DNA of 64,000 nucleotides from Knoellia sinensis KCTC 19936. GTDB lineage: Bacteria > Actinomycetota > Actinomycetes > Actinomycetales > Dermatophilaceae. Made by a program: the position numbers and the translations under genes. Below, one piece after another: positions 31,417 to 60,825 of the stretch. The stretch is from positions 124,001-188,000 of the forward strand of contig NZ_AVPJ01000005.1 of assembly GCF_000768705.1 (NCBI RefSeq), in the 5' to 3' direction. Under the pieces are notes generated by a model, which searched no databases, was not told the origin of the DNA, and saw nothing but the letters and a program-made list of their open reading frames with translations. Every line of letters starts with the position of its first letter. The first letter of the stretch is position 1.

Positions 31417-31437
31417 CGACTCACCTCCCGGACCAGC

Positions 31438-31463
31438 CGGCATACGAACGATTCCGTATGCCG
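31438..31463. repeat. Inverted pair of GTATGCC motifs upstream of carbamate kinase
   Basis: CGGCATACG (31438-31446) and CGTATGCCG (31455-31463) are perfect 9-bp arms around 8 nt. The right arm continues as GTGTGCCGAC, matching the extended motif. It lies 22 bp upstream of the carbamate kinase start, between this gene and the methyltransferase, so it could end the upstream transcript or control kinase expression. Confidence 0.75.
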
Positions 31464-36684: not shown

Positions 36685-38712
36685 TCACATCCAGTCGTAC
36701 TCGCTTGCCCGCTCACCGCCCGCGAGCTGTGCGTAGCCGGGTCCGCGGTCGAAGAACGGCTCGTCGGGACGATTCTCGCGCAGTTCCGTGCGCAACGCCT
36801 CACTTGCGTCCATGTCCACGCTCACCGTGTCGCGGTCGCCGGTTGCGACGACACCGTATGCCGTCCGCGCACCGTCCACGGACACCTTGCCCCAGCGGAG
36901 GTCACGTTCTACCTCGTCGAGTGGGCGCTCCAAGGGGTCGCCCCAGCCGCCGCCGCCGGTGGTGCGGATGCGGATGACCTGCCCTGCCTTGACCGGCTCG
37001 GCGTCGGCCAATGCGTCGACGACTCGCTCGTCCGGTCCACCGACATCGATGGTCACTTCGAACGGACGCCCGGCCTTGCCGCCCTTGACGCCCCAGCACG
37101 CAAGGATCGACCGGTCCGCGATCGACATGAAGTGTCCGTCGCGCAGCATCCGGATGTGCTTCTCGTAGCCGAGACCGCCCCGATAGCGTCCCGCGCCACC
37201 GGAATCGACAGCGAGGCCGAGGCGCTCGACGATGAACGGGAAGCGCGACTCGGTGAACTCGGTCGGCAGGTTGCGGGAGTCGGGGACGACGTGGATGGTG
37301 TCCTCGCCGTCGGCGTAGTAGCGACCGCCAGAGCCACCGCCGAGGACCTCGCGCATGAGGTAGTCGTTGCCGTCGCGGTCCTTGCCGTAGACGCCCGTGT
37401 AGCGGATCGTCTCCTGGTCGGCCGGCATCTGACCGTCGACGGCCTTGGCGACGACGCCGGCGAGGACGCCGAGCAGTCGCAGGATGACGAACGTCCGCGC
37501 GTTCGTCGGCGCCGGATAGATCGGGGTGAGCAGGGTGCCCTTCTCGGGGAAGCGCATCTCGATGAGCGGCACGATGCCCTCGTTGACGTCGAGCTCGGCC
37601 ATCCGCTCGGGGGTGTCGGCGAGGTTGCGCAGGATCGGGGCCAGCCACTTCTTGAGGAAGTTGCCACCGACGTAGTCGCCGCAGTGGTTGATCGGCCCCT
37701 TGGCCTGGGGTGCGGTGCCGGTGAAGTCGATGATGAGGCGCGGCCCACCCGGGAAGTTCGTCTCGGAATCGGCGGGTGCGTCGTCGACCTTGGTGAGGGT
37801 GATGCGCTGGGTGTGCAGCTGCGGCTCGTCGACGCCGTCGTGCTCTGCGTAGTCCTCCCAGACATAGGTCCCCGCCGGGATCTTCGAGAGGATCTCGCGG
37901 CGGTAGGTCTCGGTCGTGCTGTCGAGGATCGCGTCGAACGCCGCCTCGATGTCGTCGCGGCCGTAGCGTGCGAAGAGGTCCGACAGGCGCCTCGCGCCCA
38001 TGAGGCAGGCGGAACACTCGGCATCGAGGTCGGCGGCGAGGCTGTCCGGCATCCGCGAGTTGCGCGTCATGATCCGCAGGGCTGCTTTGTTGGGAACTCC
38101 CTTGTCCCACAACTTGATCGGCGGGACGGACAGCCCCTCCTCGTGGACGCTCGTCGCGTTGCTCGGCATGGACCCGGGTACGGCGCCGCCGATGTCGTCG
38201 TGGTGCCCGAAGGCCTGGACGAACGCCACGACCTCGGGTCCGTTTCCGTCGTCATGGAAGACGGGCACCGTCACGCAGAGGTCGGGGAGGTGGCCGATGC
38301 CACCCTCGGACTCATAGACGTCGTTGTGGAAGAAGACGTCGCCTTCAGCCATCTCCTCGAGCGGGAAGTCCCGCACGATCGGGTGGACGAGCGCCGAGTA
38401 GGACCGGCCGGTGAGCTTGCGCAACTGCCGGTCGTGGATGCCGGCCCGGAAGTCGTGGGCGTCGCGGATCATGGGGGAGCGGCTCGTGCGGGCGATCGCC
38501 GTCTCGACCTCCATCTCGACGCTCGCGAGGGTGCCCTGGACGATCTCGACGAGGATCGGGTCGACGCTCGATCCCGGTGCGGTGAGGCGCTTGCCGTGTT
38601 CGTATGCCGTGGGGAGACCCGCCGGGTTCACGGCGGCTTCCGACGTGGTCGAGCCGTGCGGGGTCGAGCCGTGCGGGGTCGAGCCGTGCTGGGTCGAGGC
38701 GGCGGTGTTCAC
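36685..38712 (-). CDS. hyuB: Hydantoinase B / oxoprolinase subunit
   Basis: 675 aa from GTG 38712, overlapping the hyuA stop as GTGA; a longer upstream frame lies over hyuA. HyuB family: VDPILVEIVQGTLASVEMEVETAIARTSRSPMI, GDVFFHNDVYESEGGIGHLPDL, FGHHDDIGGAVPGSMPSNATSVHEEGL, GRYRGGLGYEK, TTGGGGWGDPLERP. With HyuA it performs ATP-dependent opening of hydantoin-like or oxoproline-like rings. The first 20 residues are an unusual HGSTP repeat from a tandem 15-bp DNA repeat (38649-38695). Confidence 0.92.
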   Translation of the reverse strand: MNTAASTQHGSTPHGSTPHGSTTSEAAVNPAGLPTAYEHGKRLTAPGSSVDPILVEIVQGTLASVEMEVETAIARTSRSPMIRDAHDFRAGIHDRQLRKLTGRSYSALVHPIVRDFPLEEMAEGDVFFHNDVYESEGGIGHLPDLCVTVPVFHDDGNGPEVVAFVQAFGHHDDIGGAVPGSMPSNATSVHEEGLSVPPIKLWDKGVPNKAALRIMTRNSRMPDSLAADLDAECSACLMGARRLSDLFARYGRDDIEAAFDAILDSTTETYRREILSKIPAGTYVWEDYAEHDGVDEPQLHTQRITLTKVDDAPADSETNFPGGPRLIIDFTGTAPQAKGPINHCGDYVGGNFLKKWLAPILRNLADTPERMAELDVNEGIVPLIEMRFPEKGTLLTPIYPAPTNARTFVILRLLGVLAGVVAKAVDGQMPADQETIRYTGVYGKDRDGNDYLMREVLGGGSGGRYYADGEDTIHVVPDSRNLPTEFTESRFPFIVERLGLAVDSGGAGRYRGGLGYEKHIRMLRDGHFMSIADRSILACWGVKGGKAGRPFEVTIDVGGPDERVVDALADAEPVKAGQVIRIRTTGGGGWGDPLERPLDEVERDLRWGKVSVDGARTAYGVVATGDRDTVSVDMDASEALRTELRENRPDEPFFDRGPGYAQLAGGERASEYDWM

Positions 38713-40841
38713 TTCTCCTCCTGCGTTGTCGACTGCTTGGTGATGACGAGGTTGCCCAACCGGTCCACACGCACCGTGAAGCCGGGGTGGACCGGGACCG
38801 TCGAGCCGAACTCCTCGATGATCGCGGGACCGCTCACGGTGTCGCCGGCGCGGAGGTCGGGACGCCACCACACTCCGGTCTCGACATAGCCGGCGTCGGC
38901 GTCGAAGCACACCTGGCGGGTGGAGCGGCGCGCCGACGCCTGACCCCCCGGCGCACCTTCTGTCCCAGTGGACGATTGTTGTCGGGACTGCAGCTCGCGC
39001 AGCTCGGGCCGAGTGATCGGTCCGACACCGGTGACACGCAGGTTGACCCACTCGACCTGCTGGGTGGGATCGTCCCGGAAGTCGTAGCCGTACAGCTGGC
39101 GGTGAGCGTCGTGGAAGGCGGAGGCGACGTGCACGGCATACGAGTCATCGACAGCCACATCGGAAGGTGCGGTGACGCGCACCTCGTAGGCCTGTCCGAA
39201 GTAGCGCAGGTCCACCGTCCGCGTGAACTGGTGCTCGGAGGCCGCAAAGCCCTCCTTCTCCAACGCGGCAGCGGCGCGCTCCGTCAGCGACGCGAACGTC
39301 TTCTCGATCCCTGCGTGGTCGAGGGCCGAATGCTTTGCGACCTGCGTCTGCACATAGTCGTTCTTCACGTCGACGGTGAGCAGACCGAAGGCGCTGACGT
39401 TGCCCGGGTTCGGAGGGACGACGACGCCGGCGAGGTCGAGGATGTCGACGAGACGGCACGCGAGGAGCGACCCGGAGCCGCCGAACGTCGTGAGCATGAA
39501 GTCGCGGACATCGAGGCCGCGCTTGACCGAGACCTGGCGGAGGGCGTTGGCCTGGTTCCACGCCGAGATCTCGAGAATGCCTGTGGCACACCGCTCGTAG
39601 TCGAGTCCGAGCCGCTCCGCCAGGGCCGAGATGCCTGCCCGCGCAGCGTCGACATCGAGCGGAATCTCGCCGCCGAGCAGGTGCGGAGGGATCCGTCCGA
39701 GCGTCACGTGCGCGTCCGTGATGGTCGGCTCCGTCCCACCCTTGGCGTAGCAGAGCGGCCCCGGGTCGGCACCCGCCGAGTGCGGCCCGACCTTGAGCGC
39801 ACCCTCCGGAGACACCCAGGCAATCGACCCGCCGCCCGCTCCCACGGTGACGACGTCGATCATCGGGATCTTGCTCGGATAGGCGCCGACCGTGCCCTCG
39901 GTCGTGAGCGTCGGCTCGCCGTCGAGCACCACGGACACGTCGGTCGAGGTGCCGCCGCCGTCACAGGTGAGGACCTTGTCGAAGCCGGCCTTCTGAGCGA
40001 TGAGCGCGGCACCCAGCGCCCCGGCCGCCGGTCCGGACAGGACCGTGGTGATCGGCTGGTGCACCACCTCGTCGGCGGAGAGCACGCCCCCGTTGGACTT
40101 CATCACATAGAACGGGATGGGCCGCCCGCCAGTGAAGCCCTGCAGCCGCTCGTGGATGTTGCTCACGTAGCGGCTGACGTTCGGCTTCACGGCCGCGTCG
40201 ACGAGGGTCGTCATGGAGCGCTCGTACTCGCGATACTCGCGGAGCACCTCGCTCGAGATCGACACGATCGCGTCGGGATGCTCGCGCCGCAGGATCTCGC
40301 GCATTCGCAGCTCGTGGTCGTCCGCGGCATACGAATGCAGGAAGCAGACGCCGATCGTCGTGATGCCCCGCTCACGGAACCACCGCGCAGCGGCGACGGC
40401 GTCGTCCTCATCGAAGGGCCGGATCTCGTTGCCCTCGAAGTCGAAGCGCCCGCCGACCGTGCGCACCGCGTCCGCCGGAACGATCCGGTCCGGCTTCACC
40501 CAGAAGTACGAGTTGCCGTAGCCGTCGGGCACGGCCTGGCGGGCGATCTCGAGCATGAACTCGTAGCCCTCGGTCGTGATGAAGCCGAGTTGCTCGACCT
40601 TGCCCTCGAGGAGCTTGTTGGTCGCGACGGTGGTGCCGTGGCAGACGGCGGTGATGTCGTCGCCGGTCGCAGCCATCAGGTCCAGGACCTTGTCGATGCC
40701 GCTGATGAACCCGTCGGCGGGGTTGCTCGGCGTGCTCGGGGTCTTCGTCGTGACGAGTTCGCCCGAGTCCTCGTCGAACGCGACGACGTCCGTGAACGTG
40801 CCGCCGGTGTCGATGCCGATCCTGATCCGTCGCTGCGCCAT
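38709..40841 (-). CDS. hyuA: Hydantoinase A / oxoprolinase subunit
   Basis: 710 aa from ATG 40841. Actin-like ATPase features: RIGIDTGGTFTDVVAFD at the start, VCHGTTVATNKLLEG, VLSGPAAGALGAAL, VLTCDGGGTSTDVSVV, IDVVTVGAGGGSIAWV, SAGADPGPLCY. It supplies ATP-driven activation for the HyuB ring opening. Substrates in the family include N-methylhydantoin, hydantoins, 5-oxoproline and acetophenone-like carboxylation substrates, so the exact one is not set. Two GTATGCC motifs lie inside (about 39135 and 40327). Confidence 0.92.
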   Translation of the reverse strand: MAQRRIRIGIDTGGTFTDVVAFDEDSGELVTTKTPSTPSNPADGFISGIDKVLDLMAATGDDITAVCHGTTVATNKLLEGKVEQLGFITTEGYEFMLEIARQAVPDGYGNSYFWVKPDRIVPADAVRTVGGRFDFEGNEIRPFDEDDAVAAARWFRERGITTIGVCFLHSYAADDHELRMREILRREHPDAIVSISSEVLREYREYERSMTTLVDAAVKPNVSRYVSNIHERLQGFTGGRPIPFYVMKSNGGVLSADEVVHQPITTVLSGPAAGALGAALIAQKAGFDKVLTCDGGGTSTDVSVVLDGEPTLTTEGTVGAYPSKIPMIDVVTVGAGGGSIAWVSPEGALKVGPHSAGADPGPLCYAKGGTEPTITDAHVTLGRIPPHLLGGEIPLDVDAARAGISALAERLGLDYERCATGILEISAWNQANALRQVSVKRGLDVRDFMLTTFGGSGSLLACRLVDILDLAGVVVPPNPGNVSAFGLLTVDVKNDYVQTQVAKHSALDHAGIEKTFASLTERAAAALEKEGFAASEHQFTRTVDLRYFGQAYEVRVTAPSDVAVDDSYAVHVASAFHDAHRQLYGYDFRDDPTQQVEWVNLRVTGVGPITRPELRELQSRQQSSTGTEGAPGGQASARRSTRQVCFDADAGYVETGVWWRPDLRAGDTVSGPAIIEEFGSTVPVHPGFTVRVDRLGNLVITKQSTTQEEK

Positions 40842-41793: not shown

Positions 41794-42726
41794 TCAGTCG
41801 CCTTCGGGTTTGTGGTCGGGGCGGGGGCGACCATGCGGGAAGGACGTCTTCGCCGGGGACTCGAGGTCCTCGCGGTGGCGCCGGATGAGGTCGAGGTTGC
41901 GGTCGCGCAGGTGGTCGAAGCCCTGGCGGATGTTCGAGCCGGGAGTGAGCGACGACAGGGCCGTCTCGGGGTCGAGCCGGGCGGACACCCACCCTTCGTG
42001 CGAGGCAGCCTTGGCGAGGACCGTCGCATTCGGCGTGACGATGTGGCTGTTGCCGAAATAGATGACGCCCGCCGGGTCGATCCCCGTCGCGTTGGCACCG
42101 ATGACGAAGACATGGTTGTCGTAGGCGCGCGCTCGTGACGTGAGCTCCCAGATGTCCGCGGACCGCAGGAGCGCCGACGGTCGGCAGATGATCTCGGCAC
42201 CCTGCACAGCCTGGATGCGTGACAGTTCGGGGTAGTCGCCGTCAAAGCAGATGATCATCCCGATGCGCCCAAGAGCGGTGTCGCACACCGTGACCGTGTC
42301 CCCGGGCGTGACCCACCCGCCCCCGGCGACCGACTCGCTGGTGAAGGGGTGTGTCTTGCGATAGACCCCGAGCACCTCGCCGTTGGTGTTGATGAGCACG
42401 GACGCGTTGTGGACGGTCCCCCGCTCGGCGCCGCGCTCGTAGGTGCCGAAGCACAGCACGATCCGGAGCTCGCGCGCCAGCTCCTGGAACGGCTCGGTCA
42501 TCGTCCCGGGCAGCTCGCTCACGAGGTCCCAGAGCATCTCGACCGAGCAGTCCGGCGTGAACCCGGTGGTCACCGACTCGGGCAGCACGACGAGGTCTGC
42601 CCCTGTCGCGGCCACACAGCGCCGGATCATGTCGAGAGAGCGGTTGATGTTGGCGTCGACGACCTGGGGCGTCAACGACCCGCGCGCGGGGCCGATCTGG
42701 ATGGCGGCCGCGGTCAGGGGGCGCAT
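41794..42726 (-). CDS. Carbon-nitrogen hydrolase (nitrilase superfamily amidase)
   Basis: 310 aa from ATG 42726. The Glu-Lys-Cys triad is complete: Glu50 in VVLPESVT, Lys124 in VYRKTHPF, Cys160 in GMIICFDGDYPE. Family members hydrolyse amides, including N-carbamoyl amino acids and beta-ureidopropionate. Encoded in the hydroxylase operon (start touches the CoxG stop), it is a candidate for cleaving a ureido or amide intermediate such as ureidomalonate or malonamate. The exact substrate cannot be read from sequence. Confidence 0.88.
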   Translation of the reverse strand: MRPLTAAAIQIGPARGSLTPQVVDANINRSLDMIRRCVAATGADLVVLPESVTTGFTPDCSVEMLWDLVSELPGTMTEPFQELARELRIVLCFGTYERGAERGTVHNASVLINTNGEVLGVYRKTHPFTSESVAGGGWVTPGDTVTVCDTALGRIGMIICFDGDYPELSRIQAVQGAEIICRPSALLRSADIWELTSRARAYDNHVFVIGANATGIDPAGVIYFGNSHIVTPNATVLAKAASHEGWVSARLDPETALSSLTPGSNIRQGFDHLRDRNLDLIRRHREDLESPAKTSFPHGRPRPDHKPEGD

Positions 42727-43445
42727 CAGCGGCCTCCGACGAGCCAGCCGACGACGACGCCGGCGAGGGCGATGGCGGCTCCGAAGAGGGCACCGGGGAC
42801 GAAGCCCGGTCCGCTGGAACCGCCACCAGCGGCGGAACCGGCGGACCCGGCATACACGCGTTCAGAGCTGCCCAATTGGGTGAGTTCGGTACGGGACACG
42901 CCGGTATGCCGTCCGCCCGCCGCAGCGTCGTCCCGTGCGGAACCGTCCAATTGGGTGACTTCGGTACGCGCCGGAGCAGACGATGGGGTGAGTTCGGGCC
43001 GGGAGTCGCCGGCGATGTCGGCGTCGAGGGCCTGGAACATCTGGCCGGCCATCTTGCGCGCGACCCCGGCGAGCATCCGCTGGCCCACGCCGCCGACCGG
43101 GCCCCCAACGACCGCGTCGGCCTCGTAGCTGATGGCGGTCCCGCCACCATCGCCCGGAGCCAGCGCCACGTCGACGGTGGTCGAGATCGTGCCGGGGGCG
43201 CCGGCGCCGTCGGCCTTCATGGTGAAGGCGGTCGGCTCGGTGACATCGGTGATCGCCACCTCCCCCTCGTAGGAGCCCTTGATCGCCGCGACTCCCGCCA
43301 TGACGGTCATGGCGTAGCGACCGGGCGACAGTTCGCGCAGCGACTGGCAGCCCGGAACGCTGCGGGCGAGGACGGCGGGATCGTGGACTGCCTTCCACAC
43401 CTGCTCCGGGGAGGCGTTCATCGTTGCGGTGCCGGTGATCTTCAT
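42726..43445 (-). CDS. CoxG-like SRPBCC protein with C-terminal membrane anchor
   Basis: 239 aa from ATG 43445, which overlaps the hydroxylase large subunit stop by 4 bp. An SRPBCC domain (about 1-145: KITGTATMNASPEQVWKAV, AVLARSVPGCQSL, YEADAVVGGPVGGVGQRML) of the CoxG type is followed by a linker and one C-terminal helix (ALFGAAIALAGVVVGWLVGG). CoxG anchors or matures CO-dehydrogenase-like enzymes at the membrane. The linker (about 150-210) is partly encoded by inserted repeat elements shared with intergenic arrays. Confidence 0.88.
   Translation of the reverse strand: MKITGTATMNASPEQVWKAVHDPAVLARSVPGCQSLRELSPGRYAMTVMAGVAAIKGSYEGEVAITDVTEPTAFTMKADGAGAPGTISTTVDVALAPGDGGGTAISYEADAVVGGPVGGVGQRMLAGVARKMAGQMFQALDADIAGDSRPELTPSSAPARTEVTQLDGSARDDAAAGGRHTGVSRTELTQLGSSERVYAGSAGSAAGGGSSGPGFVPGALFGAAIALAGVVVGWLVGGR
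42849..42997. repeat. Repeat elements inside the CoxG-like gene
   Basis: Within the coding linker are two CCAATTGG-centred copies (42872-42879 and 42947-42954, each in GTCCAATTGGGTGACTTCGG-like context), a degenerate third (about 42982-42997) and two GTATGCC motifs (GGCATAC 42849; GTATGCCGTCCGCCCGCC 42904-42921). They add ARTEVTQLDGS and SRTELTQLGSS to the protein in frame. Confidence 0.85.
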
Positions 43446-45865
43446 GCGGACTCCTGGGTGGTGCTGGAGCGAGGGTTCGTGGAGCGAGGGTTCGCGGCTT
43501 GGTGGCGGCGGAGGTCCCACAGTTCGTTGGGGCTGATGGGCATGGACCGGATCGGGAAGCCCTCGGCGTCTTCGATCGCCGACGCGATGACAGCCGACAC
43601 CGGGATCGTGCCGGCCTCGCCAGCACCCTTGACTCCCAACGGATTCAGCGGCGAGGGAGTCTCGAGGTGGTCGGTCTCGATGTGCGGCACCTCGGACGCA
43701 TAGGGGATGAGGAAGTCCATGAACGAGGCATTGAGGAGCTGCCCGGTCTCGTCGTACTCCATCCGCTCATACAGCGCCCCGCCGACACCCTGCGCGACTC
43801 CTCCATGGACCTGGCCCTCGACGATCATCGGGTTCACGACCGTGCCGCAGTCGTGAATGACGCAGTAGCGCAGGATCTTGATCTCCGCGGTGATCGGGTC
43901 GGTCTCGACGATGGCGGCGTGCATCCCGTTGGCGAACGTCGCTTGGGTGGGGGAGTAGAAGTCCTTGCCCTCGAGGCCGGGCTCGTCGTCGTCGGCGACT
44001 GGCGGCTTGTCCGGATCGAACGCGCCCGCGAATTGCGTTGCGGCCTTGGCGGATTCGTCGAAGGCGTAGCGCAATGGGTTCGACATGACGGCGACGGTCG
44101 ACAGTGCGATCGAGGCGTGGGGTGCGCCCTTGACGCTGATCGTCCCGTCCTCGATCTGCAGGTCCTCCTCGGCGACTTCGAGCGCGTCGGCGGCGATGCG
44201 CAACGCCTTGGCGCGCACCGCTCTCGCGGCCAGTGCCACCGCATTGCCGCTCATGACGGCGCCGCGGGACGCAAAGGTCCCCACGGCATACGGCATTCGT
44301 CGTGTGTCACCCGTGGTGACGTGGACGTCGTCGATGGAGACGCCGAGCTCGTCGGCGACGATCTGGGCGAGGATCGTCTGGTGACCCTGTCCCTGGGTCG
44401 TGAGGCCGGTGGCGACGTTGACGCGACCGCTCGTCTCGACGTGGACGTGGCCGCCCTCGTAGGGGCCGACGCCGGTGCCCTCGACATAACAGCCGATACC
44501 GAGGCCGACCTTGCGTCCCTGCGCCTCGGCTTCTTCCTTGTATACCGTGAAGTCGTCCCAGCCCACCAGCGCCTTGAGCTTCGCGAGGCTTGCGGGGAAG
44601 TCGCCGGAGTCGTACTTGAGCGGCCGACCGTCCTGGAAGAGGAGCCCTTGGTCGTAGGGCATCTCCTCGGGCTGGATGAAGTTGCGGGACCGGACCTCGG
44701 TGCGGTCGATGCCGAGCTCGGCCGCGATGGCGTCCATGGTGCGCTCCATGGCGAAGCAGCCCTGGGGGCGACCGGCCCCTCGGTAGGGCGTCACGAGAAC
44801 GGTGTTGGTGTAGAGCGACCAGAACTCAACGCGGTAGTTCTGCGGCTTGTAGGGCCCGAGCAACTGGGTCGCGGTGATGATCGGGACGATCACGCCGTAG
44901 GGGAGGTAGGCGCCGTTGTCGTGCCAGAACTTCACGTCGAGGGCGAGGAGGCGGCCGTCGTCGTCGAACCCGACGGTGACCTGCTGGAGCTGCCCGCGCT
45001 CGTGGGCGCTCGACGTGAAGTGCTCGCGGCGGTCCTCGGTCCACTTGACGTCGTGGTTGAGCCGGCGGGCAGCCCAGGGGACGAGTACCTCCTCGGGCCA
45101 CGGGTGCATGATCTTGACGCCGAATCCGCCGCCGACGTCGGGGGCGATGCACTCGACCTGCGCGAGGGGCAGTTGGAGCTTGGCGGCGACGGCGGCCCGC
45201 ACCCCGGTGGAGGTCTGGGTGGATGAGTGGATCCGCATGCGCTGCTCGTCCGAGTCCCATTGCGCGAGAACGCCTTTGCCCTCCATCGGCATGCACGCGC
45301 TGCGTTCGATCTCGAGGTCGAGCGTGAGAGTACGCGGAGCCTTGGCCATGGCGGCTTCGACGTTGCCGACCTCCTGGAGCAGGTGGGCCGCGACGTTGCC
45401 GGGGGCGTCGTCGTGGACGAGTTCGGCACCGTCGCGGGACTTCTCGATGCCCACGACCGGCGGCAGGTGGTCATAGCTCACGACGATGCGCTGGGCCGCG
45501 TCCTCGGCGATGTAGCGGTCGCGCGCGACGACCATGACGATCGCCTCACCGACGTGGTTGACCTCGTCCTTGGCGAGGGCGTAGCCGGTGCGGCCGGCTT
45601 CGATGCTCGGGTGCGGGATGAGCAGGGGCAGGCGGTCGCCCGCAGGTCCGTCGAGGTCCTCGTGGGTATAGACGGCAATGACGCCCTCGACCTCCACCGC
45701 CCCGTCGACGTCGATGTCGGTGATGCGGGCGTGGGCGTGTGGGCTGCGCACGAACGCCGCCTCCCACGCGTCGTGGCCGAGGTCGTCGAGGTAGCGCCCG
45801 TTGCCCGTGACGAGGCGCGGGTCCTCCTTGCGAAGCACCGGCGAGCCGAACTGGCGCGTCGTCAT
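43442..45865 (-). CDS. Molybdenum hydroxylase large subunit (CoxL form II / xanthine dehydrogenase family)
   Basis: 807 aa from ATG 45865. Molybdopterin-binding features include GGGFGVKIMHPWPEEVLVPW, TPYRGAGRPQGCFAMER and GTGVGPYEGGHVHVETSG. The motif YRGAGR marks form II; form I CO dehydrogenase has AYRCSFR with the Cu-binding Cys. The catalytic Glu is in VKGAGEAGTIP. It hydroxylates an aromatic heterocycle at the Mo site. Surrounding genes favour uracil/thymine to barbiturate over xanthine. Chained with the small and medium subunits by 4-bp overlaps. The last residues NPRSTNPRSSTTQESA are a short duplication. Confidence 0.92.
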   Translation of the reverse strand: MTTRQFGSPVLRKEDPRLVTGNGRYLDDLGHDAWEAAFVRSPHAHARITDIDVDGAVEVEGVIAVYTHEDLDGPAGDRLPLLIPHPSIEAGRTGYALAKDEVNHVGEAIVMVVARDRYIAEDAAQRIVVSYDHLPPVVGIEKSRDGAELVHDDAPGNVAAHLLQEVGNVEAAMAKAPRTLTLDLEIERSACMPMEGKGVLAQWDSDEQRMRIHSSTQTSTGVRAAVAAKLQLPLAQVECIAPDVGGGFGVKIMHPWPEEVLVPWAARRLNHDVKWTEDRREHFTSSAHERGQLQQVTVGFDDDGRLLALDVKFWHDNGAYLPYGVIVPIITATQLLGPYKPQNYRVEFWSLYTNTVLVTPYRGAGRPQGCFAMERTMDAIAAELGIDRTEVRSRNFIQPEEMPYDQGLLFQDGRPLKYDSGDFPASLAKLKALVGWDDFTVYKEEAEAQGRKVGLGIGCYVEGTGVGPYEGGHVHVETSGRVNVATGLTTQGQGHQTILAQIVADELGVSIDDVHVTTGDTRRMPYAVGTFASRGAVMSGNAVALAARAVRAKALRIAADALEVAEEDLQIEDGTISVKGAPHASIALSTVAVMSNPLRYAFDESAKAATQFAGAFDPDKPPVADDDEPGLEGKDFYSPTQATFANGMHAAIVETDPITAEIKILRYCVIHDCGTVVNPMIVEGQVHGGVAQGVGGALYERMEYDETGQLLNASFMDFLIPYASEVPHIETDHLETPSPLNPLGVKGAGEAGTIPVSAVIASAIEDAEGFPIRSMPISPNELWDLRRHQAANPRSTNPRSSTTQESA

Positions 45866-46392
45866 ACGGGCTCACCCGGCTCCGCCGCCATTGCTCCCTC
45901 GGTGCCTTCGCGCTTGATCTCGGCGGCGCGCAGGACGGCCTTGCAGATGTTCTGGTAGCCGGTGCAGCGGCACAGGTTCCCCGAGATCGCCTCGCGCGCC
46001 TCGTCGATGGTCGGGTCGGGGTTCTCCTCGATGAAGGCCGTGATGGTCGTGACGAATCCTGGCGTGCAGAAGCCGCATTGGAGGCCGTGGCACTCGACGA
46101 AGGCCTGTTGGACCGGACCCATCGCGTCTTGAGTGCCGAGCCCTTCGGTGGTCGTGATCTCGTGCTCCTGTGCCGACACGGCGAACATCAGGCACGAACG
46201 CATCGGGTCGCCGTCGACGAGGACCGTGCAGGCTCCGCACACCCCGTGCTCGCAGCCGACGTGCGTGCCAGTGAGGCGCAGGTCGTGGCGTAGGAAGTCC
46301 GACAGGAGTCGGCGTGGTTCGACGGTGCGCGTGTGCTCGACCCCGTTGACGCGGAGCGTCACGTCGACGGTGACCTCGGAACTCGTGCTCAT
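45862..46392 (-). CDS. Molybdenum hydroxylase small (2x 2Fe-2S) subunit
   Basis: 176 aa from ATG 46392. The plant-type ferredoxin cluster is THVGCEHGVCGACTVLVDG with a distal Cys in SCLMFA. The second cluster is in HGLQCGFCTPGF and ISGNLCRCTGYQNI. It carries electrons from the Mo site to the FAD subunit. Overlaps both neighbours by 4 bp. Confidence 0.95.
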   Translation of the reverse strand: MSTSSEVTVDVTLRVNGVEHTRTVEPRRLLSDFLRHDLRLTGTHVGCEHGVCGACTVLVDGDPMRSCLMFAVSAQEHEITTTEGLGTQDAMGPVQQAFVECHGLQCGFCTPGFVTTITAFIEENPDPTIDEAREAISGNLCRCTGYQNICKAVLRAAEIKREGTEGAMAAEPGEPV

Positions 46393-47261
46393 GACGCCAC
46401 CTCACTCAGTGCGGTCGTGAGGGCTCGTCGGGTGAGCTCCGCGGCCAGCGCGCGGCGGTATTCGCTGCTCGCGTGGATGTCGGCCTCGGGGGCGATCCCT
46501 GCCTGCACGAGATCCTCCACACCGTCCCACGCGGATGAGAAGGGCTGTCCTGCAACGGCTTCCGTCAGATCCACCACGACCGGCACATCCGTGACCGAGA
46601 CGTATGCCGCACGCGCACCTCTCACGACCGCGTCACCTCCCTGCCCCTCGACGTCGACGGCGACCCCCACGCCGGCGAGGGCGTAGTCACCGTGTCGGCG
46701 AGCCGACTCGAGGAACGCCGTGCGGGTCCCCTCGGCGAAGCGCCCGAACCGCACCGCCTCGACCAGCTCATCCGCCTCGAGCACGGTCATCAGCGGCCCT
46801 TCGAAGAAGTCAGCGGCGGCGACCTCGCGTCGACCTGCCGGTCCGACGACCTCGATCACGGCGCCGGTGAGCACTGCGATCGAGGGCATCTCGCCGGCTG
46901 CGTCGGCGTGGGCGATGGAGCCCACGGTCGTGCCGCGGTTGCGGATGGCCGGATGGGCCACGTTGCGGAGCGCTTGACGCAGAAGGGGGAGGACGGCATA
47001 CGCCTCGGTGTTCTTCTCGAGGGACGCGTGCCGGACGGTGGCACCGACTCTGACGACGTCGTCGGAGACGGTCACGGTGTCCAGGCCGGCGACGCGATTG
47101 ATGTCGACGAGGTGTGCTGGCTGCGCGAGCCGCATGTTGAGGACGGGGATGAGGCTCTGCCCCCCGGCGAGAACCTTGCCGTCGTGACCCACGTCCCCGA
47201 GCATCGCGACGGCTTCGTCGAGCGTGCGGGGCGAGTGGTGGACGAACGGGGCAGGCTTCAC
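46389..47261 (-). CDS. Molybdenum hydroxylase medium (FAD) subunit
   Basis: 290 aa from ATG 47261. FAD-binding signatures: KVLAGGQSLIPVLNMRL and NRGTTVGSIAHADAAGEMP (the TVGSIAHADP-type loop). C-terminal CO_deh_flav_C region follows. First subunit gene of the operon order medium-small-large-CoxG, which is the CoxM-S-L-G type of arrangement. It passes electrons to an unknown acceptor. Permease stop is only 32 bp upstream, so transport and oxidation are probably cotranscribed. Confidence 0.94.
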   Translation of the reverse strand: MKPAPFVHHSPRTLDEAVAMLGDVGHDGKVLAGGQSLIPVLNMRLAQPAHLVDINRVAGLDTVTVSDDVVRVGATVRHASLEKNTEAYAVLPLLRQALRNVAHPAIRNRGTTVGSIAHADAAGEMPSIAVLTGAVIEVVGPAGRREVAAADFFEGPLMTVLEADELVEAVRFGRFAEGTRTAFLESARRHGDYALAGVGVAVDVEGQGGDAVVRGARAAYVSVTDVPVVVDLTEAVAGQPFSSAWDGVEDLVQAGIAPEADIHASSEYRRALAAELTRRALTTALSEVAS

Positions 47262-47293: not shown

Positions 47294-48760
47294 TCAGCGC
47301 TTGTCCTGGTAGAGGTCGTCGATGCCGTCCTCGTCGCCATACACACGGTCGCCGGTGGCGATGGCCGTGCCACCGGGTCCGCCGTCGCCATCGGCGCGGT
47401 CGCGCAGGTCGGCGGGGGCGATGGCGCGAGCGAGGTGGTAGGCGCCGATGGCGACGATCGTGCCGAGGGCGATGCCGCTCAGGATGAAGTCGTCGCTGAG
47501 CTGCATCTTGACGTCACCGACGCCGATGATGATGCCCGCGGAGACCGGGACGAGGTTGATCGGGTTCGCGAAGTCGACGCCGTTCTCCTTCCAGATCTTG
47601 GCGCCGAGCAGGCCGATCATGCCGTAGAGGACGACCGTGATGCCGCCGAGCACACCACCGGGGACGGAGGCGACGAGCGCCCCGAACTTGGGGGAGAGGC
47701 CGAAGAGGATCGCGACGATCGCGGCGACGTAGTAGGCAGCGGTCGAGTAGACGCGCGTGGCGGCCATGACGCCGATGTTCTCGGCGTAGGTCGTCGTGGG
47801 CGAGCCGCCGACGGACGAGGCGATCATCGTGCCGACGCCGTCGGCGCCGATCGCGCGGCCCATGTCCTTGTCGAGGTCGGCGCCGGTCATCTCGGCGACG
47901 GCCTTGACGTGGCCGGTGTTCTCGGCGATGAGGGCGATGACGGCGGGGAGCACGAGGAGGATCGCGGCGGTGGAGAAGCTCGGGGCGTGCCAGCCGGGGA
48001 CCTCTGTGCCGTCGGCGTTGAAGATCGTCTCGGCCGGGAAGCCGAACCACGCGGCCTCACCGATGCCGGCAGTGTTCCAACGCAGGTGCTCGGTCGCCTC
48101 GGTCGCGCCACCCAGCACGGACGTGATCGGACCGGCGGTCTTGTCGAGGATCCACGACAGCGCGGTGCCGAAGATCAGCGCGAGGAAGATCGCGATGCGG
48201 CTGATGAAGCCCTTGAACGCCACCGCGCACACGATCGTGAAGAGCATCGTGGCGAGCGCGACCCACTGGTCCTGCGGCCAGTAGATGTTGGCGACGACCG
48301 GTGCGAGGTTGAACCCGATGAGCATGACGACGGCGCCGGTGACGACGGGCGGCAGCACCTTGTGCAGGACGCTCGAGCCGAGGAAGTGGATGGCCAGGCC
48401 GACGAGGGCGAGGACGAGACCGGAGACGAGGATCGCGCCGGTGACCTCGGCGGAGTCGCCGCCCTGCGCGCGGATGGCGGCGACACCACCGACGAACGCG
48501 GCGGACGTGCCGAGGTAGCTCGGGACCCGGCCCTGGACGATGAGCAGGAACGCGATCGTCGCGATACCGCTCATCATGATCGCCAGCTGCGGGTTGAGGC
48601 CCATGATGAGCGGGAAGACGAACGTGGCGCCGAACATCGCGACGACGTGCTGCGCACCGAGGCCGACGGTACGGCCCCAGTCGAGCCGCTCGTCCGGGGC
48701 GACGACCTCGTCGAGGCCGAGCGCGCCCTCCTTGACCTTCCAACCAAGACCCAGAGCCAT
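47294..48760 (-). CDS. NCS2 nucleobase permease, RutG/UraA-like (pyrimidine)
   Basis: 488 aa, about 14 membrane helices. The substrate region AENTGHVKAVAEMTG has the Glu-x3-His spacing of UraA, and SVGGSPTTTYAENIGVMAATRVYS is the uracil/pyrimidine (UraA, RutG) form; xanthine/urate members have a QN[VN]G signature there. So pyrimidine uptake is favoured over xanthine, though the family is often named uracil-xanthine permease. First gene of the minus-strand hydroxylase series, so its position implies that the imported base is the substrate of the downstream hydroxylase. Confidence 0.9.
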   Translation of the reverse strand: MALGLGWKVKEGALGLDEVVAPDERLDWGRTVGLGAQHVVAMFGATFVFPLIMGLNPQLAIMMSGIATIAFLLIVQGRVPSYLGTSAAFVGGVAAIRAQGGDSAEVTGAILVSGLVLALVGLAIHFLGSSVLHKVLPPVVTGAVVMLIGFNLAPVVANIYWPQDQWVALATMLFTIVCAVAFKGFISRIAIFLALIFGTALSWILDKTAGPITSVLGGATEATEHLRWNTAGIGEAAWFGFPAETIFNADGTEVPGWHAPSFSTAAILLVLPAVIALIAENTGHVKAVAEMTGADLDKDMGRAIGADGVGTMIASSVGGSPTTTYAENIGVMAATRVYSTAAYYVAAIVAILFGLSPKFGALVASVPGGVLGGITVVLYGMIGLLGAKIWKENGVDFANPINLVPVSAGIIIGVGDVKMQLSDDFILSGIALGTIVAIGAYHLARAIAPADLRDRADGDGGPGGTAIATGDRVYGDEDGIDDLYQDKR

Positions 48761-55839: not shown

Positions 55840-57201
55840 TCAGACGCCGCGCATCTGCCGGATCCGCAGCGCCAGGGCGAGCGTGAGACGCAACTGCGGG
55901 TCGGTCGTGAACGGCCCGAGCATCTGCTCGAGCTTGGTGATGCGGTATCGCAGCGTGTTGTAGTGGAAGAACAGGATGCGCGCCGTCTCGGCGACGTTGA
56001 GGTTGGTGTCCAGCAGGACCTGGAGGGTCTGGCGCAGGTCGGCATGGGAGGTCTGGTCGTCCGTCGCCAGCGGCCCCAGAGCCTCGTCGACGAACGCCCG
56101 CAGGTCCGCGGTGTCGGGCACGAGCGACAGCAACCGATAGATGCCGAGTCCGTCGAAGTGCATCACCGCCGACTCGCCCTGCATCTGCCGCCCCACGGCC
56201 ACGGCTCGCAGGGCCTCGCCATAGGCCCGGGGGATGTCCGCGACGGATTCGACCGGCCGCGAGACCCCTGTGGAGAAGGTGCGGCGACCGCCGCCGCCAT
56301 CGCCTCGGACGACCTTGACGATCTCGCCGACCGATCGCATGACGGCGTCCTGCTCGCCTTCGCCGCCATAGGGGGCAGGCACGAGCGCCACGACCTCCTG
56401 CGAGAACCCGGCGACCGGTGCCTTGGGCTCCCGCGTGCGCACGGCCTGAACCCAGGCCCGCACGAATCGCTCCTGAAGAGAACGCAGTTCGTCGGTCTCG
56501 CGCGTCGTGTGGTCGTCGTCCTCGTCCGTCTCGGCCACGACTACGACCATGCGCCGGTCGAGGTCCCACCCCAGCGAGGCGGCATGAGCCGCGGCCTCTG
56601 CCGGGCCACCGGCTCGACCCACCAGGGCGTCGCGCAGGAACTCCGCGCGGTACTTGCCCTCCACCGCCGCCACGGCCTGCTCCTTGGTGATGGCCAGGGC
56701 GGCCACGGCGGCAGCGCGCTGCAGGCCGTGCACGTCGGTCGTCGTCAGAACCCGTCCGGGCGTGAACACCGCCAGCAGCCCGTGGTCGGACGTCCCGGCG
56801 ACGATCCGGACCATCGTGCGCTCCGAGCGCGGGCCGTCGCCCGGATCACGTTTGCCGACCGGCTCGTCCTCGACGATGAGCCGCCCGGTGCGGTCGAAGC
56901 AGTCCAGTCCCATGACGGTGGCGACGGCGTCCTCGGCCCCGGCCGTCGCGACGACACGACCGTCGCTGGTCGTCACCAGGGCGACCCCCTCGAACAACCC
57001 CACGAGCGCTTCGCACAGATCAGCCAGCGAGCCGCCTGCCAGCACGGTCTGCACGAGGATCCGGTTGACCTCGTCCTCGCGCTGCAGCAGCTCGGCCTGA
57101 TGGTCGACGACGCGTTGCAGCGACTCGACGGTCGCTTCGCCGCCCGCATCGGCTGGCAACTGCTGGCGCTCGGCGCCGAGATCGTTGGCAACATTTACCA
57201 T
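55840..57201 (-). CDS. PucR/CdaR-family transcriptional regulator
   Basis: 453 aa from ATG 57201. Early part (about 25-190) is GAF-like ligand-sensing; the middle is a GGDEF-like PucR core; the C-terminal HTH_30 is typical (LRQTLQVLLDTNLNVAETARILFFHYNTLRYRITKLEQML). PucR-type regulators sense purine or ureide degradation products (allantoin in Bacillus). It is divergent from the DUF2877/FdrA/YlbE operon with only 35 bp between starts, so it almost certainly controls that operon and perhaps the 29-48 kb series. Confidence 0.9.
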   Translation of the reverse strand: MVNVANDLGAERQQLPADAGGEATVESLQRVVDHQAELLQREDEVNRILVQTVLAGGSLADLCEALVGLFEGVALVTTSDGRVVATAGAEDAVATVMGLDCFDRTGRLIVEDEPVGKRDPGDGPRSERTMVRIVAGTSDHGLLAVFTPGRVLTTTDVHGLQRAAAVAALAITKEQAVAAVEGKYRAEFLRDALVGRAGGPAEAAAHAASLGWDLDRRMVVVVAETDEDDDHTTRETDELRSLQERFVRAWVQAVRTREPKAPVAGFSQEVVALVPAPYGGEGEQDAVMRSVGEIVKVVRGDGGGGRRTFSTGVSRPVESVADIPRAYGEALRAVAVGRQMQGESAVMHFDGLGIYRLLSLVPDTADLRAFVDEALGPLATDDQTSHADLRQTLQVLLDTNLNVAETARILFFHYNTLRYRITKLEQMLGPFTTDPQLRLTLALALRIRQMRGV

Positions 57202-57236: not shown

Positions 57237-57932
57237 GTGGATACGACGATCCCGGCTGCGGCCTCCCCGCTCACGCGGGATCTCGTGGCGGGTTCGCGCC
57301 GGCCTGCTGTCGTGCTCGCGGCGTTCCCGACGGCCCTCTACCTCATCCTGCCCGAGCATGCCCGCGTCCTCCCCGTCGTCACCAGCGATGCGCTCGTCCT
57401 CCCGACGTCCGTGCGACTCGCCGAACCCGGCCCGCGCGACTGGGGAGTCGCGCCGGGCGAGGCCGTGACCCTCGGAGGCGACCTGGTCGCGTTGCCGAGC
57501 CACGGCATACGAATCGTCCGGTCCTGGCGCCCCCGGCGCGTCAGGACCGGCGCACCACAACCGGTCGCGTTCGACTGGGCCCCTCTGCTCGCCGAGATCG
57601 GCCGCGGCGAAGGGCTCACCCCCCGCGCCGACGACGTCCTCTGCGGAGCACTCCTCGCCGCGCGAGCCCTCGGCATCGCACGACCCGCAAGGGTGCCCGC
57701 GGAGCGCACGACGAGTTTGTCGGCGTCACTTCTCGTCGCCGCTCATGCCGGGTATGCCGTGTCAGCCGTCGTCGATCACGTCACCTCCGTCGTGGCCGGG
57801 TTCGCAGACTCGCAGGCCACGCGCGAGCAGATCCTCGCCATCGGCCACACCTCCGGTGAAGCTCTCCTCCAAGGCATCGACCTCGTGCTGGATGCAGCCA
57901 ACACCCCTCTCCTGGAACGGATCTCGTCGTGA
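57237..57932 (+). CDS. DUF2877 protein (YlbF-like, carbamoyltransferase-associated)
   Basis: 231 aa from GTG 57237. The DUF2877 core is short but recognisable (GEGLTPRADDVLCGALLAARAL; ADSQATREQILAIGHTSGEALLQGIDLVL); E. coli YlbF is in this family. It is encoded immediately before FdrA with a 4-bp overlap, as part of the FdrA/YlbE/YlbF set. That set has been linked in E. coli to oxamate carbamoyltransferase activity (phosphorolysis of oxalurate). Here it is shorter than typical members (about 270 aa). Confidence 0.78.
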   Translation: MDTTIPAAASPLTRDLVAGSRRPAVVLAAFPTALYLILPEHARVLPVVTSDALVLPTSVRLAEPGPRDWGVAPGEAVTLGGDLVALPSHGIRIVRSWRPRRVRTGAPQPVAFDWAPLLAEIGRGEGLTPRADDVLCGALLAARALGIARPARVPAERTTSLSASLLVAAHAGYAVSAVVDHVTSVVAGFADSQATREQILAIGHTSGEALLQGIDLVLDAANTPLLERISS

Positions 57933-59425
57933 CTGTGACTCAGGTGGACGTGCGCAAGGGCGCCTATCACGACTCCGTGACCCTGCTCCAGGTGTCGCGA
58001 ACCATGGGTGAAACGGCAGGTGTCGAGGCTGCGCAAGTGGCCATGGCGACCGAGCTCAACGTCGAGGTCCTGACCGGCATGGGCTTCGACATTCCCGACA
58101 CGGCAGGACCCAACGACCTCGTGGTCGCGGTGCGCGCGGCCGACGACGAGGCGGTCGCCGCCGGTGTTGCCGCCGCCGACGCCGCGCTCACAGCGACGTC
58201 CCGGGCGCCTGGCGGTGGGTTCGGGGACGCGCCGCCTCCTCGAACCACGGCCTCGGCAGTTCGTGCCGGCGGTGCCGAGATCGCCATGATTTCGGTGCCA
58301 GGGCGCTTCGCGACGACCGAGGCGCTCGATGCGATCGGGGCCGGGGCGAGCGTGATGTTGTTCTCCGACAACGTCTCCGTCGAGGACGAGGTGCTCCTCA
58401 AGGACGCAGCAGCCGCCGCCGACGTCCTCGTCATGGGGCCTGACTGCGGCACCGCCGTCATCGGGGGAGTGGCGCTCGGTTTCGCCAACGTCGTGGACGC
58501 CGGACCGATCGGCATGGTCGCAGCGTCGGGGACGGGCGCGCAGCAGATCATGTGTCTCCTCGACGCCGCCGGGGTGGGCATCTCGCACTGTCTCGGCGTC
58601 GGAGGGCGCGACCTCAAGTCCGCCGTCGGCGGACGTTCCACCCGTCAGGCCCTCGCCGCGCTCGCCGCCGACGACGCCACGACGTCGATCGTCGTCGTCT
58701 CGAAGCCACCGGACGAGGAGGTCCTCGCGGACCTCGAGTCGTATGCCGGCGGGCTGGGTCTCCCTGTCCACTGGGCGACGCTCGGTGCGGGTCGACCGGA
58801 CCTCACGTCGGCGCTTGAGGCGGTGCTTCGGGCCGAAGGGCGTGACGTGCCGGGTTGGCCGAAGTGGTTGTCGGACAACGACCCTGAGCCCGGCTCGGTG
58901 AGCGGGAGCCTGCGTGGACTCTTCTGCGGCGGAACCCTCGCGGACGAGGCCATGTTGCTGGCTGCCGAGGAATTGGGTGACATCCGCTCGAACATCCCAC
59001 TGCGTGACGACCTCGCACTGGGGTCTGACCTGCGATCGGACGGGCATGTCGTCATCGACTTCGGCGACGACGGGCTGACGCAGGGGCGGGCGCACCCGAT
59101 GATCGACCCGACCCTCCGCATGGAGCGCATCTCCGCCGAGGCCGCCGACCCGACGTGTGGGGTGCTGTTGCTCGACCTCGTCCTCGGCTACGGCGCCCAC
59201 CAGGACCCCGCCGGTGAACTCGCCGACGCGATCCGCGCCGCCAAGGACACCGCCCGTGCAGATGGGCGAGAACTCCCCGTCGTCGTATCGCTCACGGGCA
59301 CCGAGGGAGACCCGCAGGGGCTGACGCGCACCGCCCTGACGCTTGCCGCGGCCGGTGCCTCGGTCTTCCTGTCCAACCGCGACGCCACACGGCACGCGCT
59401 CAGCTTTCTCGGAGGCGACCGATGA
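57929..59425 (+). CDS. fdrA: FdrA-family acyl-CoA-synthetase-like protein
   Basis: 498 aa from GTG 57929 (MTVTQVDVRKGAYHDSVTLLQVSRTM, the FdrA start). Succinyl-CoA-synthetase-alpha-like features: DCGTAVIGGVALGFANVVDAGPIGMVAASGTGAQQIMCLLDAAGVGISHCLGVGGRDL. FdrA lies with YlbE/YlbF and carbamate kinase in the E. coli allantoin cluster and is now considered one subunit of oxamate carbamoyltransferase. It should release or transfer a carbamoyl group from a ureido acid to phosphate. Overlaps both neighbours by 4 bp. Confidence 0.92.
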   Translation: MTVTQVDVRKGAYHDSVTLLQVSRTMGETAGVEAAQVAMATELNVEVLTGMGFDIPDTAGPNDLVVAVRAADDEAVAAGVAAADAALTATSRAPGGGFGDAPPPRTTASAVRAGGAEIAMISVPGRFATTEALDAIGAGASVMLFSDNVSVEDEVLLKDAAAAADVLVMGPDCGTAVIGGVALGFANVVDAGPIGMVAASGTGAQQIMCLLDAAGVGISHCLGVGGRDLKSAVGGRSTRQALAALAADDATTSIVVVSKPPDEEVLADLESYAGGLGLPVHWATLGAGRPDLTSALEAVLRAEGRDVPGWPKWLSDNDPEPGSVSGSLRGLFCGGTLADEAMLLAAEELGDIRSNIPLRDDLALGSDLRSDGHVVIDFGDDGLTQGRAHPMIDPTLRMERISAEAADPTCGVLLLDLVLGYGAHQDPAGELADAIRAAKDTARADGRELPVVVSLTGTEGDPQGLTRTALTLAAAGASVFLSNRDATRHALSFLGGDR

Positions 59426-60825
59426 ACCAGCCGTTGCGCGGACTCTTGTCGGCCGAGTCGCCGTCGGTCGCGACCTCTGGGGTTCAGCTCTTCGCCGACG
59501 CCCTTCGCGGGCAGGCCGTCGAGGTCACGGAGGCGGACTGGCAGCCGCCCATGGAGGGGACCGAGGCCGACCTCGCCCGGGTCATGGGAGATGCGCGTCG
59601 AGCGGAGGCCAACGCGACGGCATACGCGCGAATGTCAGCCGCGGGAGCCGAGCTCTGCGACGTGAAGCAGGCCAAGGACGCCCTGGACCTCGAGCGCGGG
59701 ACGTTCTTGCACGCCGGGCCGCCGATCGAATGGGAGCGGATGTCGGGTCCGCTCAAGGGCGCCCTGATCGGTGCGGTCCTCTTCGAGGGACTGGCCGACA
59801 ACGCCGAGGAGGCCGAGAAGGCCCTCGCCGCAGGGCAGTTCGCGTTCGAGCCGTGCCACCACCGAGACGCGGTCGGACCCATGGCGGGCGTGGTGTCACC
59901 GTCGATGTGGATGTACGGCCTGCGCGACGAGGCCCATGACGCATGGTCGTGGTGCTCGCTCAACGAGGGGCTCGGCAAGGTCCTGCGCTATGGCGCCTAC
60001 GGTCCCGAGGTCGTCGACCGACTCCACTGGATGACCGATGTGCTTGGGCCGATCCTGCAACAGTCGGTGCGCGTGACCGGACCCTTCGACATCAAGGCGA
60101 TCCTCGCCCAGATGCTCCAGATGGGCGACGAGGGCCACAACCGCAACCGTGCCGGGTCGCTCATGCTGCTGCGCGAACTGCTGCCCGGGATGATCACGGC
60201 GGACGCGTCGTCGACGGACATCGCGGAGGCGGTGCGCTTCTCGGGTGCCAACGAGCACTTCTTCCTCAATCTCGGTATGCCGGCCTGCAAGCTCGCGACC
60301 ATGGCGGCACACGGGGTGGCCGGGTCGTCGATCGTGACGACGATGGCGCGCAATGGCACCGACTTCGGGATCCGGGTGTCCGGAACCGGGGATGCGTGGT
60401 TCACCGGTCCGGCGAACACTCCGGAAGGCTTGTTCCTGGGGGACTATGGGCCGGACGACGCCAACCCCGACATCGGTGACTCGGCGATCACGGAGACCGG
60501 CGGCATCGGTGGCTTCGCGATGGCGGCGGCCCCGGCGATCGTGAAGTTCGTCGGCGGCGATGTGGCGTTCGCGCTGCAGGCGACGCAGCGGATGTACGAG
60601 ATCACGCAGGGCGAGCACCCGATGTTCCAGGTGCCGATTCTCGACTTCCGCGGGACGCCGACAGGGATCGACGTCGTATCGGTCGTCCGGACCGGGATCC
60701 TGCCCCAGATCAACACCGGCATGGCCGGACGCGTCGCCGGGACGGGGCAGGTCGGTGCTGGGTTGGTGACGCCGTCCGCGGAGTGCTTCCCGGCGGCCTT
60801 GGCTGCCCTCGCGTCGCGCGTGTGA
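59422..60825 (+). CDS. DUF1116 protein (YlbE-like), carbamoyltransferase subunit
   Basis: 467 aa from ATG 59422. DUF1116/YlbE family: WERMSGPLKGALIGAVLFEGLADN, HHRDAVGPMAGVVSPSMWMYGLRD, DEGHNRNRAGSLMLLRELLPGM, TMARNGTDFGIRVSGTGD, GTPTGIDVVSVVRTGILPQINTGMAGR. It always accompanies FdrA. With the two preceding genes it forms the whole predicted ureide carbamoyltransferase, under PucR control. A hairpin follows at 60865. Confidence 0.92.
   Translation: MNQPLRGLLSAESPSVATSGVQLFADALRGQAVEVTEADWQPPMEGTEADLARVMGDARRAEANATAYARMSAAGAELCDVKQAKDALDLERGTFLHAGPPIEWERMSGPLKGALIGAVLFEGLADNAEEAEKALAAGQFAFEPCHHRDAVGPMAGVVSPSMWMYGLRDEAHDAWSWCSLNEGLGKVLRYGAYGPEVVDRLHWMTDVLGPILQQSVRVTGPFDIKAILAQMLQMGDEGHNRNRAGSLMLLRELLPGMITADASSTDIAEAVRFSGANEHFFLNLGMPACKLATMAAHGVAGSSIVTTMARNGTDFGIRVSGTGDAWFTGPANTPEGLFLGDYGPDDANPDIGDSAITETGGIGGFAMAAAPAIVKFVGGDVAFALQATQRMYEITQGEHPMFQVPILDFRGTPTGIDVVSVVRTGILPQINTGMAGRVAGTGQVGAGLVTPSAECFPAALAALASRV

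Follow-up and report, generated by a model that had tools for sequence, protein, structure and literature searches.

A barbiturase-linked AllF-AllG-AllH set in Knoellia sinensis as a predicted ureidomalonate:phosphate carbamoyltransferase of oxidative pyrimidine degradation

A stretch of 64,000 nucleotides of the Knoellia sinensis KCTC 19936 genome (contig NZ_AVPJ01000005.1, positions 124,001 to 188,000; hereafter the window) carries, at positions 57237-60825, three genes for homologues of AllH (YlbF), AllF (FdrA) and AllG (YlbE), which, with a probability of roughly four in five, encode a ureidomalonate:phosphate carbamoyltransferase that acts in oxidative pyrimidine degradation. The enzyme would cleave ureidomalonate with phosphate to yield carbamoyl phosphate and malonamate. 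The gene evidence for ureidomalonate cleavage by the trio is strong, and from the gene context we infer both the catalysis and its forward, phosphorolytic, direction.

The trio is a real AllFGH-type set: the coordinates, the Pfam matches of the three subunits (table 1) and the comparison with Escherichia coli confirm the FdrA/YlbE/YlbF set recognised there in an earlier reading of the DNA alone (the sequence-only reading). The three subunit genes are adjacent in the order AllH-AllF-AllG, intact, and overlap by 4 bases at each of the two joints. Identity to the E. coli K-12 proteins is 40% over 493 amino acids for AllF, 47% over 408 for AllG and 34% over 126, in the C-terminal part only, for AllH; the solved structures of E. 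coli FdrA (3dmy) and 3clq match the window AllF and AllG with 233 and 389 bits, respectively. In the NCBIfam scan of the window proteins AllF matched the FdrA model NF004760 (8.7e-118, 394 bits), under its curated cut-off of 433, and no match was returned for AllH and AllG. AllG is a single-copy gene in the genome carrying the window. The scans covered part of the window open reading frames, many of which gave no match, and no allD, allC or allE was found among those scanned.

The AtzD-family ring opener also encoded in the window is, to judge from its sequence, a barbiturase and not a cyanuric acid hydrolase, matching the solved barbiturase 5hwe with 674 bits and 308 of 367 residues identical (84%), and the best cyanuric acid hydrolase with 324 bits only. 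With respect to the published barbiturase signature (Asn, His, Lys, Val and Ser/Ala at five active-site positions; PMC3758960, 2013), the window protein carries N193, H323, K327, V347 and S348, besides the Ser-Lys pairs made up of K41, K161 and K298 with S82, S227 and S346, all aligned to the published numbering by eye. In 12 aligned proteins (that of the window and 11 relatives) the first four signature positions are invariant and the fifth is Ser in four, Ala in three and Gly in five, so that distant relatives match only four of the five positions. In a comparison of barbiturase sequences, Knoellia aerolata and a Janibacter stand nearest among named relatives (95%). Barbiturase yields ureidomalonate (3-oxo-3-ureidopropanoate; PMC3758960), an N-carbamoyl amide as oxalurate is. 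Directly upstream of barbiturase lies the carbamate kinase that had been placed at 30475 in the sequence-only reading, an assignment borne out by NF009007 (308 bits, above the cut-off of 266), with TIGR00746 at 351 bits, just below its cut-off of 358, and by 39% identity over 310 amino acids to the E. coli K-12 kinase.

The co-occurrence of AllG with barbiturase-like genes, suggested as a check in the sequence-only reading, is found in two samples, one of 246 genomes from the class and one of 296 from the phylum. In the class sample 63 genomes have an AtzD-family gene, 66 have AllG and 57 both (one of the 57, G349, by an AtzD match that is a 25-position fragment; G and L numbers are our handles for genomes and loci), AllG being present in 57/63 AtzD-family genomes versus 9/183 others; in the phylum sample the figures are 18, 36 and 14, i.e. 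14/18 versus 22/278. The Fisher p-values, 4.6e-39 and 2.6e-11, respectively, ignore kinship among genomes. Among the six class genomes with AtzD and without AllG, four (G050, G407, G412 and G428) have divergent AtzD homologues at 34-40% identity, and G341 is only 72% complete. AllG was also present, elsewhere in the genome, in all 34 named barbiturase genomes drawn from the 80 loci best matching barbiturase, a hand-chosen, strain-named set that includes 13 Nocardioides and some of the class-sample genomes. In these 80 loci carbamate kinase lies within 10 kilobases (kb) of barbiturase in 79 and within 1.6 kb in 78; AllG lies within 10 kb in just one. AllG and AtzD share a contig in 34 of the 57 class genomes with both, at no more than 45 kb in 27 of these and mostly at 18-44 kb, as in the window, and in 11 of the 14 phylum genomes, seven at 6-10 kb.

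A natural swap is offered by a family of this class, perhaps the Mycobacteriaceae and represented by 201 genomes, in which ten genomes have barbiturase-class genes and just one of these, G564, has AllG. None of the nine AllG-less genomes has a carbamate kinase beside barbiturase, and in eight an amidase-signature enzyme is encoded directly downstream of it (L233:98-1699 and equivalents); in the two cases tested this amidase matched NF005686 (709 and 719 bits) and, in the one searched, malonamidase E2 with just 70-73 bits and an aryl acylamidase with 173. G564 has the kinase beside barbiturase and not the NF005686-type amidase. The kinase adjoins barbiturase in 27/31 genomes with AllG versus 0/11 without it, and in eight of the latter a different amidase does, as counted in a neighbour table filled in by hand with 42 of the 53 loci that have barbiturase-class genes (at least 64% identity). 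When the 11 left-out loci (L034-L036, L038-L045) are added, all of which come from AllG genomes and lack a carbamate kinase closer than about 1.5 kb to barbiturase, the comparison becomes 27/42 versus 0/11; nine of the 11 have the kinase gene at another place in the stretch or alongside AllF and AllG, and none was found in G097 or G279. Barbiturase and ureidomalonase have been described from Rhodococcus erythropolis (PMC3758960), and the AllG-less genomes likely include Rhodococcus. Taken together with the swap, this makes the downstream NF005686-type amidase a candidate for the ureidomalonase gene. We know of no cloned ureidomalonase gene. In eight genomes of the same family, divergent AtzD homologues (L046, L220-L226; 34-37% identity to barbiturase) lie beside an NCS2 permease, and are uncharacterised cyclic amide hydrolases.

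If the trio phosphorolyses ureidomalonate, malonamate is left over, and malonamidase E2 is the enzyme that converts malonamate to malonate and ammonia (reviewed in PMC8393822). Compact clusters of distant relatives, such as those of G009 and G118, join genes for PucR, barbiturase, permease, carbamate kinase, AllH, AllF, AllG, molybdenum hydroxylase, CoxG, an amidase, HyuA and HyuB. In several other genomes, too, a PucR homologue adjoins barbiturase. The transporters differ among clusters, being of the NCS2 type, with an extra NCS1 type in G226, an ATP-binding cassette (ABC) system with an NMT1/THI5-like protein in G108, and an ABC permease with its ATPase in G279. Seven of the 14 genomes (G009, G024, G051, G075, G086, G118 and G226) have in their cluster an amidase with 41-44% identity to malonamidase E2. 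It adjoins CoxG and, in G009, G086 and G118, where CoxG and HyuA are both in view and close, it fills the gap between them; searched against solved structures in G009 and G118 only, it matched malonamidase E2 with 282 and 247 bits, and GatA with 144 and 151, respectively. The presence of this amidase in the clusters points to malonamate formation by the trio, as far as sequence can tell. The place beside CoxG is held by a carbon-nitrogen hydrolase in the window, where it lies between CoxG and HyuA, and also by one in G085, and G118 has, besides its malonamidase homologue, a carbon-nitrogen hydrolase (30% identical) that adjoins barbiturase. The sequence-only reading had the window enzyme (41794) cut malonamate to malonate: its family holds, while the proposed role rests on the place in the cluster and not on the family.

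It is improbable that in these genomes, too, an amidase hydrolyses ureidomalonate directly to malonate and urea while the trio acts on another ureide of the cluster, for instance a product of HyuAB, members of the ATP-dependent hydantoinase/oxoprolinase family. HyuA and HyuB genes do occur in the neighbourhood of barbiturase (48 and 63 of the 80 loci, respectively); three genomes without AtzD (G032, G135 and G157) have the arrangement molybdenum hydroxylase-HyuA-HyuB-AllF-AllG; and, of the 24 among the 80 loci with CoxG and HyuA both in view, 18 have in the gap an amidase about 40% like that beside barbiturase in AllG-less genomes, five a carbon-nitrogen hydrolase and one neither. However, HyuAB is also near barbiturase in G624 and G602, which lack AllG, and thus does not track the trio; on the same ground HyuAB was set aside as a replacement for the trio. 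The pairing of carbamate kinase with barbiturase only where AllG is present argues in the same sense. Furthermore, urease alpha was absent from 38/48 and 39/55 genomes with AllG and barbiturase (partly overlapping sets), so that the urea would be wasted unless a urea amidolyase is present. Of the 10/48 with a match, one is below the curated cut-off, and none was found in the window's genome. At E 1e-40 the match is present in 9/11 barbiturase genomes without AllG versus 16/55 with it (two of the 16 below the curated cut-off), a contrast much of which is explained by lineage, because 11 of 14 relatives of the AllG-less group that have no AtzD also have a urease match. In enteric bacteria, with the exception of O157:H7, AllFGH genes are described as going with a lack of urease (Kim and Kim 2024, PMC11326118). 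In the three AtzD-less loci (L080, L081 and L082 of G032, G135 and G157) HyuAB perhaps opens the ring, and two of them include an amidase that is 34-35% like malonamidase E2.

Still more doubtful, indeed very improbable, is that the trio is an ordinary oxamic transcarbamylase working on oxalurate from allantoin and that its nearness to barbiturase merely reflects the clustering of purine and pyrimidine genes. In E. coli oxalurate comes from the action of AllD, the ureidoglycolate dehydrogenase, which is found above cut-off in 0/48 genomes with barbiturase and AllG (with a positive E. coli control). Since the allantoinase model matches all 296 phylum genomes weakly, only matches above its curated cut-off (43/296) were counted; by this count, AllG does go with allantoinase (14/43 versus 22/253), and the window genome has one on another contig. 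Yet AllG follows AtzD both with allantoinase (9/9 AtzD genomes versus 5/34 others) and without it (5/9 versus 17/244), and 5 of the 14 phylum genomes with AllG and barbiturase have no allantoinase above the cut-off, so that the co-occurrence with allantoin genes only, which the sequence-only reading had named as evidence to the contrary, was not what was observed. In a tree of 45 AllG sequences the 16 barbiturase-linked ones, the window's among them, form a single branch (support 100/98) separate from the E. coli sequence, with some of the remaining rows on long branches; 14 positions differ between the groups (four comparison sequences). To this are added clusters that hold barbiturase and often malonamidase-like genes. 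In favour of oxalurate stands also that oxamate/oxalurate is the sole measured activity of the family met in print (PMC11326118).

Besides the association with allantoinase, other observations weigh against ureidomalonate as the substrate of the trio. The E. coli AllFGH enzyme has been assayed in reverse only, with oxamate and carbamoyl phosphate (PMC11326118). The window trio is 26 kb from the carbamate kinase, in a separate transcription unit. No malonamidase E2 homologue was recognised in the window, where the amidase is of another family; no amidase was recognised in 3 of the 12 genomes with the place covered (G062, G097 and G279; in G108 and G269 the contig ends before it); and the resemblance of the gap amidase to the AllG-less type in 18 of the 24 loci means that amidases are not cleanly split by substrate. 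G510, a genome of high completeness with barbiturase, has neither AllG nor a kinase neighbour nor the AllG-less-type amidase, and is a real exception. The nine related AllG-less genomes may amount to few independent events, and within their family AllG does not track barbiturase (1/10 versus 6/191, p 0.30), so that the association holds at the level of the wider class and phylum and not in each lineage. Weaker AllD-like matches are found in 7/48 genomes. Finally, HyuAB, a frequent neighbour of barbiturase, has no place in the proposed scheme or in the known pathway.

In the proposed pathway, uracil would be taken up by the NCS2 permease and oxidised by the molybdenum hydroxylase to barbiturate, the ring of which barbiturase, given its identity to the solved enzyme and its specificity residues, is predicted to open to ureidomalonate. 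Following phosphorolysis by the trio, carbamate kinase would convert carbamoyl phosphate and ADP to ATP, ammonia and CO2, which is known chemistry for this family, and malonamate would be split to malonate and ammonia by an amidase, i.e. the carbon-nitrogen hydrolase in the window and, for half of the compact clusters, the homologue of malonamidase E2. A coenzyme A (CoA) transferase and a carboxyltransferase-like protein may then carry malonate towards acetyl-CoA. Hydrolysis by ureidomalonase to malonate and urea would be replaced, with one ATP saved per ring and no need for urease. More generally, the chances seem about even that there are two interchangeable forms of oxidative pyrimidine degradation, sharing as uracil dehydrogenase the molybdenum hydroxylase now labelled aerobic CO dehydrogenase: a hydrolytic form, with barbiturase, the NF005686-type amidase as the missing ureidomalonase gene, and urease, and a phosphorolytic, ATP-saving form, with barbiturase, AllFGH, carbamate kinase and malonamate amidase, which would be the commoner in the actinobacteria sampled.

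If true, the AllFGH enzyme family, the genes of which were identified only in 2024 (PMC11326118), would gain a second substrate, and a reason would be offered why many soil actinobacteria keep fdrA-type genes away from allantoin clusters. ATP and ammonia would be recovered, and no urea given off, by a route where the described pathway knows only hydrolysis; with candidate genes for ureidomalonase and uracil dehydrogenase, an old pathway would become testable gene by gene. The current library models name these proteins acyl-CoA synthetase FdrA, oxamate carbamoyltransferase subunits and CO dehydrogenase. In agreement with the sequence-only reading, which knew of no account of it, no description of a phosphorolytic ureidomalonate step was found in searches of open-access papers, subscription papers being mostly outside the search.

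Table 1. Features of the window discussed in the text, in order of position.
Feature	Positions	Strand	Length and start	Supporting matches
Barbiturase (group VI cyclic amide hydrolase)	29281..30426	-		PF09663 6.2e-142
Carbamate kinase, directly upstream of barbiturase	30475..31443	-		NF009007, TIGR00746
Fused AccD-AccA carboxyltransferase-like protein, predicted malonyl-CoA decarboxylation	32451..34004	-		PF01039, PF03255
Class III CoA-transferase, predicted malonate activation	33977..35152	-		PF02515 6.1e-116
HyuB and HyuA (hydantoinase/oxoprolinase)	36685..40841	-		PF02538, PF01968, PF05378
Carbon-nitrogen hydrolase, predicted malonamate amidase	41794..42726	-		PF00795 2.9e-47
CoxG-family protein	42726..43520	-		PF06240 3e-24
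Molybdenum hydroxylase, three subunits, predicted uracil dehydrogenase	43442..47261	-		MoCoBD, Fer2_2, FAD_binding_5
NCS2 nucleobase permease, RutG-like	47294..48760	-		PF00860 6.1e-78; TIGR03616 351 bits, cut-off 759
PucR/CdaR-type regulator, divergent from the trio	55840..57201	-		PF13556, PF17853 (Pfam)
AllH/YlbF (DUF2877) subunit	57237..57932	+	231 amino acids, GTG start	PF11392 4.1e-16
AllF/FdrA subunit, predicted ureidomalonate:phosphate carbamoyltransferase	57929..59425	+	498 amino acids, GTG start	Ligase_CoA PF00549 3.1e-33
AllG/YlbE (DUF1116) subunit	59422..60825	+	467 amino acids, ATG start	PF06545 2e-94

In the window (G+C 67-73%) the rest of the catabolic genes form a block on the strand opposite to the trio and about 9 to 28 kb away from it, in the order NCS2 permease, three-subunit molybdenum hydroxylase, CoxG, carbon-nitrogen hydrolase, HyuA, HyuB, NmrA-like protein, class III CoA-transferase, fused AccD-AccA, methyltransferase, carbamate kinase and AtzD-family ring opener. 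Between block and trio lie at least genes for a potassium/proton antiporter, a Band-7 protein and a citrate-transporter-like protein. Between the latter and the PucR gene there is also a tandem array (55568-55817; 3.5 copies of a 72-base unit, 92% matches). The place of the molybdenum hydroxylase near barbiturase and a nucleobase permease suggests that it is a uracil dehydrogenase, and in relatives, too, its genes are found near AllG or barbiturase. Its large subunit carries PYRGAGR at the position where true CO dehydrogenases presumably have AYRCSFR. In NCBIfam the large subunit (43442-45865) bears the name of aerobic CO dehydrogenase group 5 (NF040766, 1532 bits). With regard to malonate, the class III CoA-transferase is near barbiturase in 41/80 loci and the fused AccD-AccA in 17/80, the latter matching malonate decarboxylase beta and gamma weakly (44 and 30 bits). 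An acyl-CoA synthetase near barbiturase was considered as a malonyl-CoA synthase and is suggestive in G279 only, where malonyl-CoA synthase is the best NCBIfam match (446 bits, below the cut-off of 558); the same model comes second in G181 (347 bits), and the best match in G135 is a carnitine-CoA ligase.

Among known systems, the nearest idea met in print is that of the nitrifier allFGHK genes beside a biuret hydrolase gene (PMC12625717, 2025), which likewise combine AllFGH and a kinase away from allantoin genes, but with biuH as neighbour, a reading by the authors as oxalurate degradation, and no word with the stem barbitur in the main text. Malonamidase E2, of the amidase signature family and described from symbiont bacteroids (PMC8393822), has its homologues in half of the clusters, at the step predicted to follow the trio, unlike the window, with its carbon-nitrogen hydrolase in that place. 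With the oxidative pyrimidine pathway of R. erythropolis the same barbiturase group, the ureidomalonate intermediate and the malonate product are shared; in that organism hydrolysis of ureidomalonate gives malonate and urea (PMC3758960), whereas the trio is predicted to retain the carbamoyl group in carbamoyl phosphate. As in E. coli AllFGH with AllK, three homologous subunits go with a carbamate kinase, and the predicted substrate is an N-carbamoyl amide of a short acid, with carbamoyl phosphate as predicted product; unlike the E. coli system, the set is linked to barbiturase and not to allDCE, its AllG belongs to a separate clade, the kinase gene is paired with barbiturase, and the predicted substrate is longer by one methylene.

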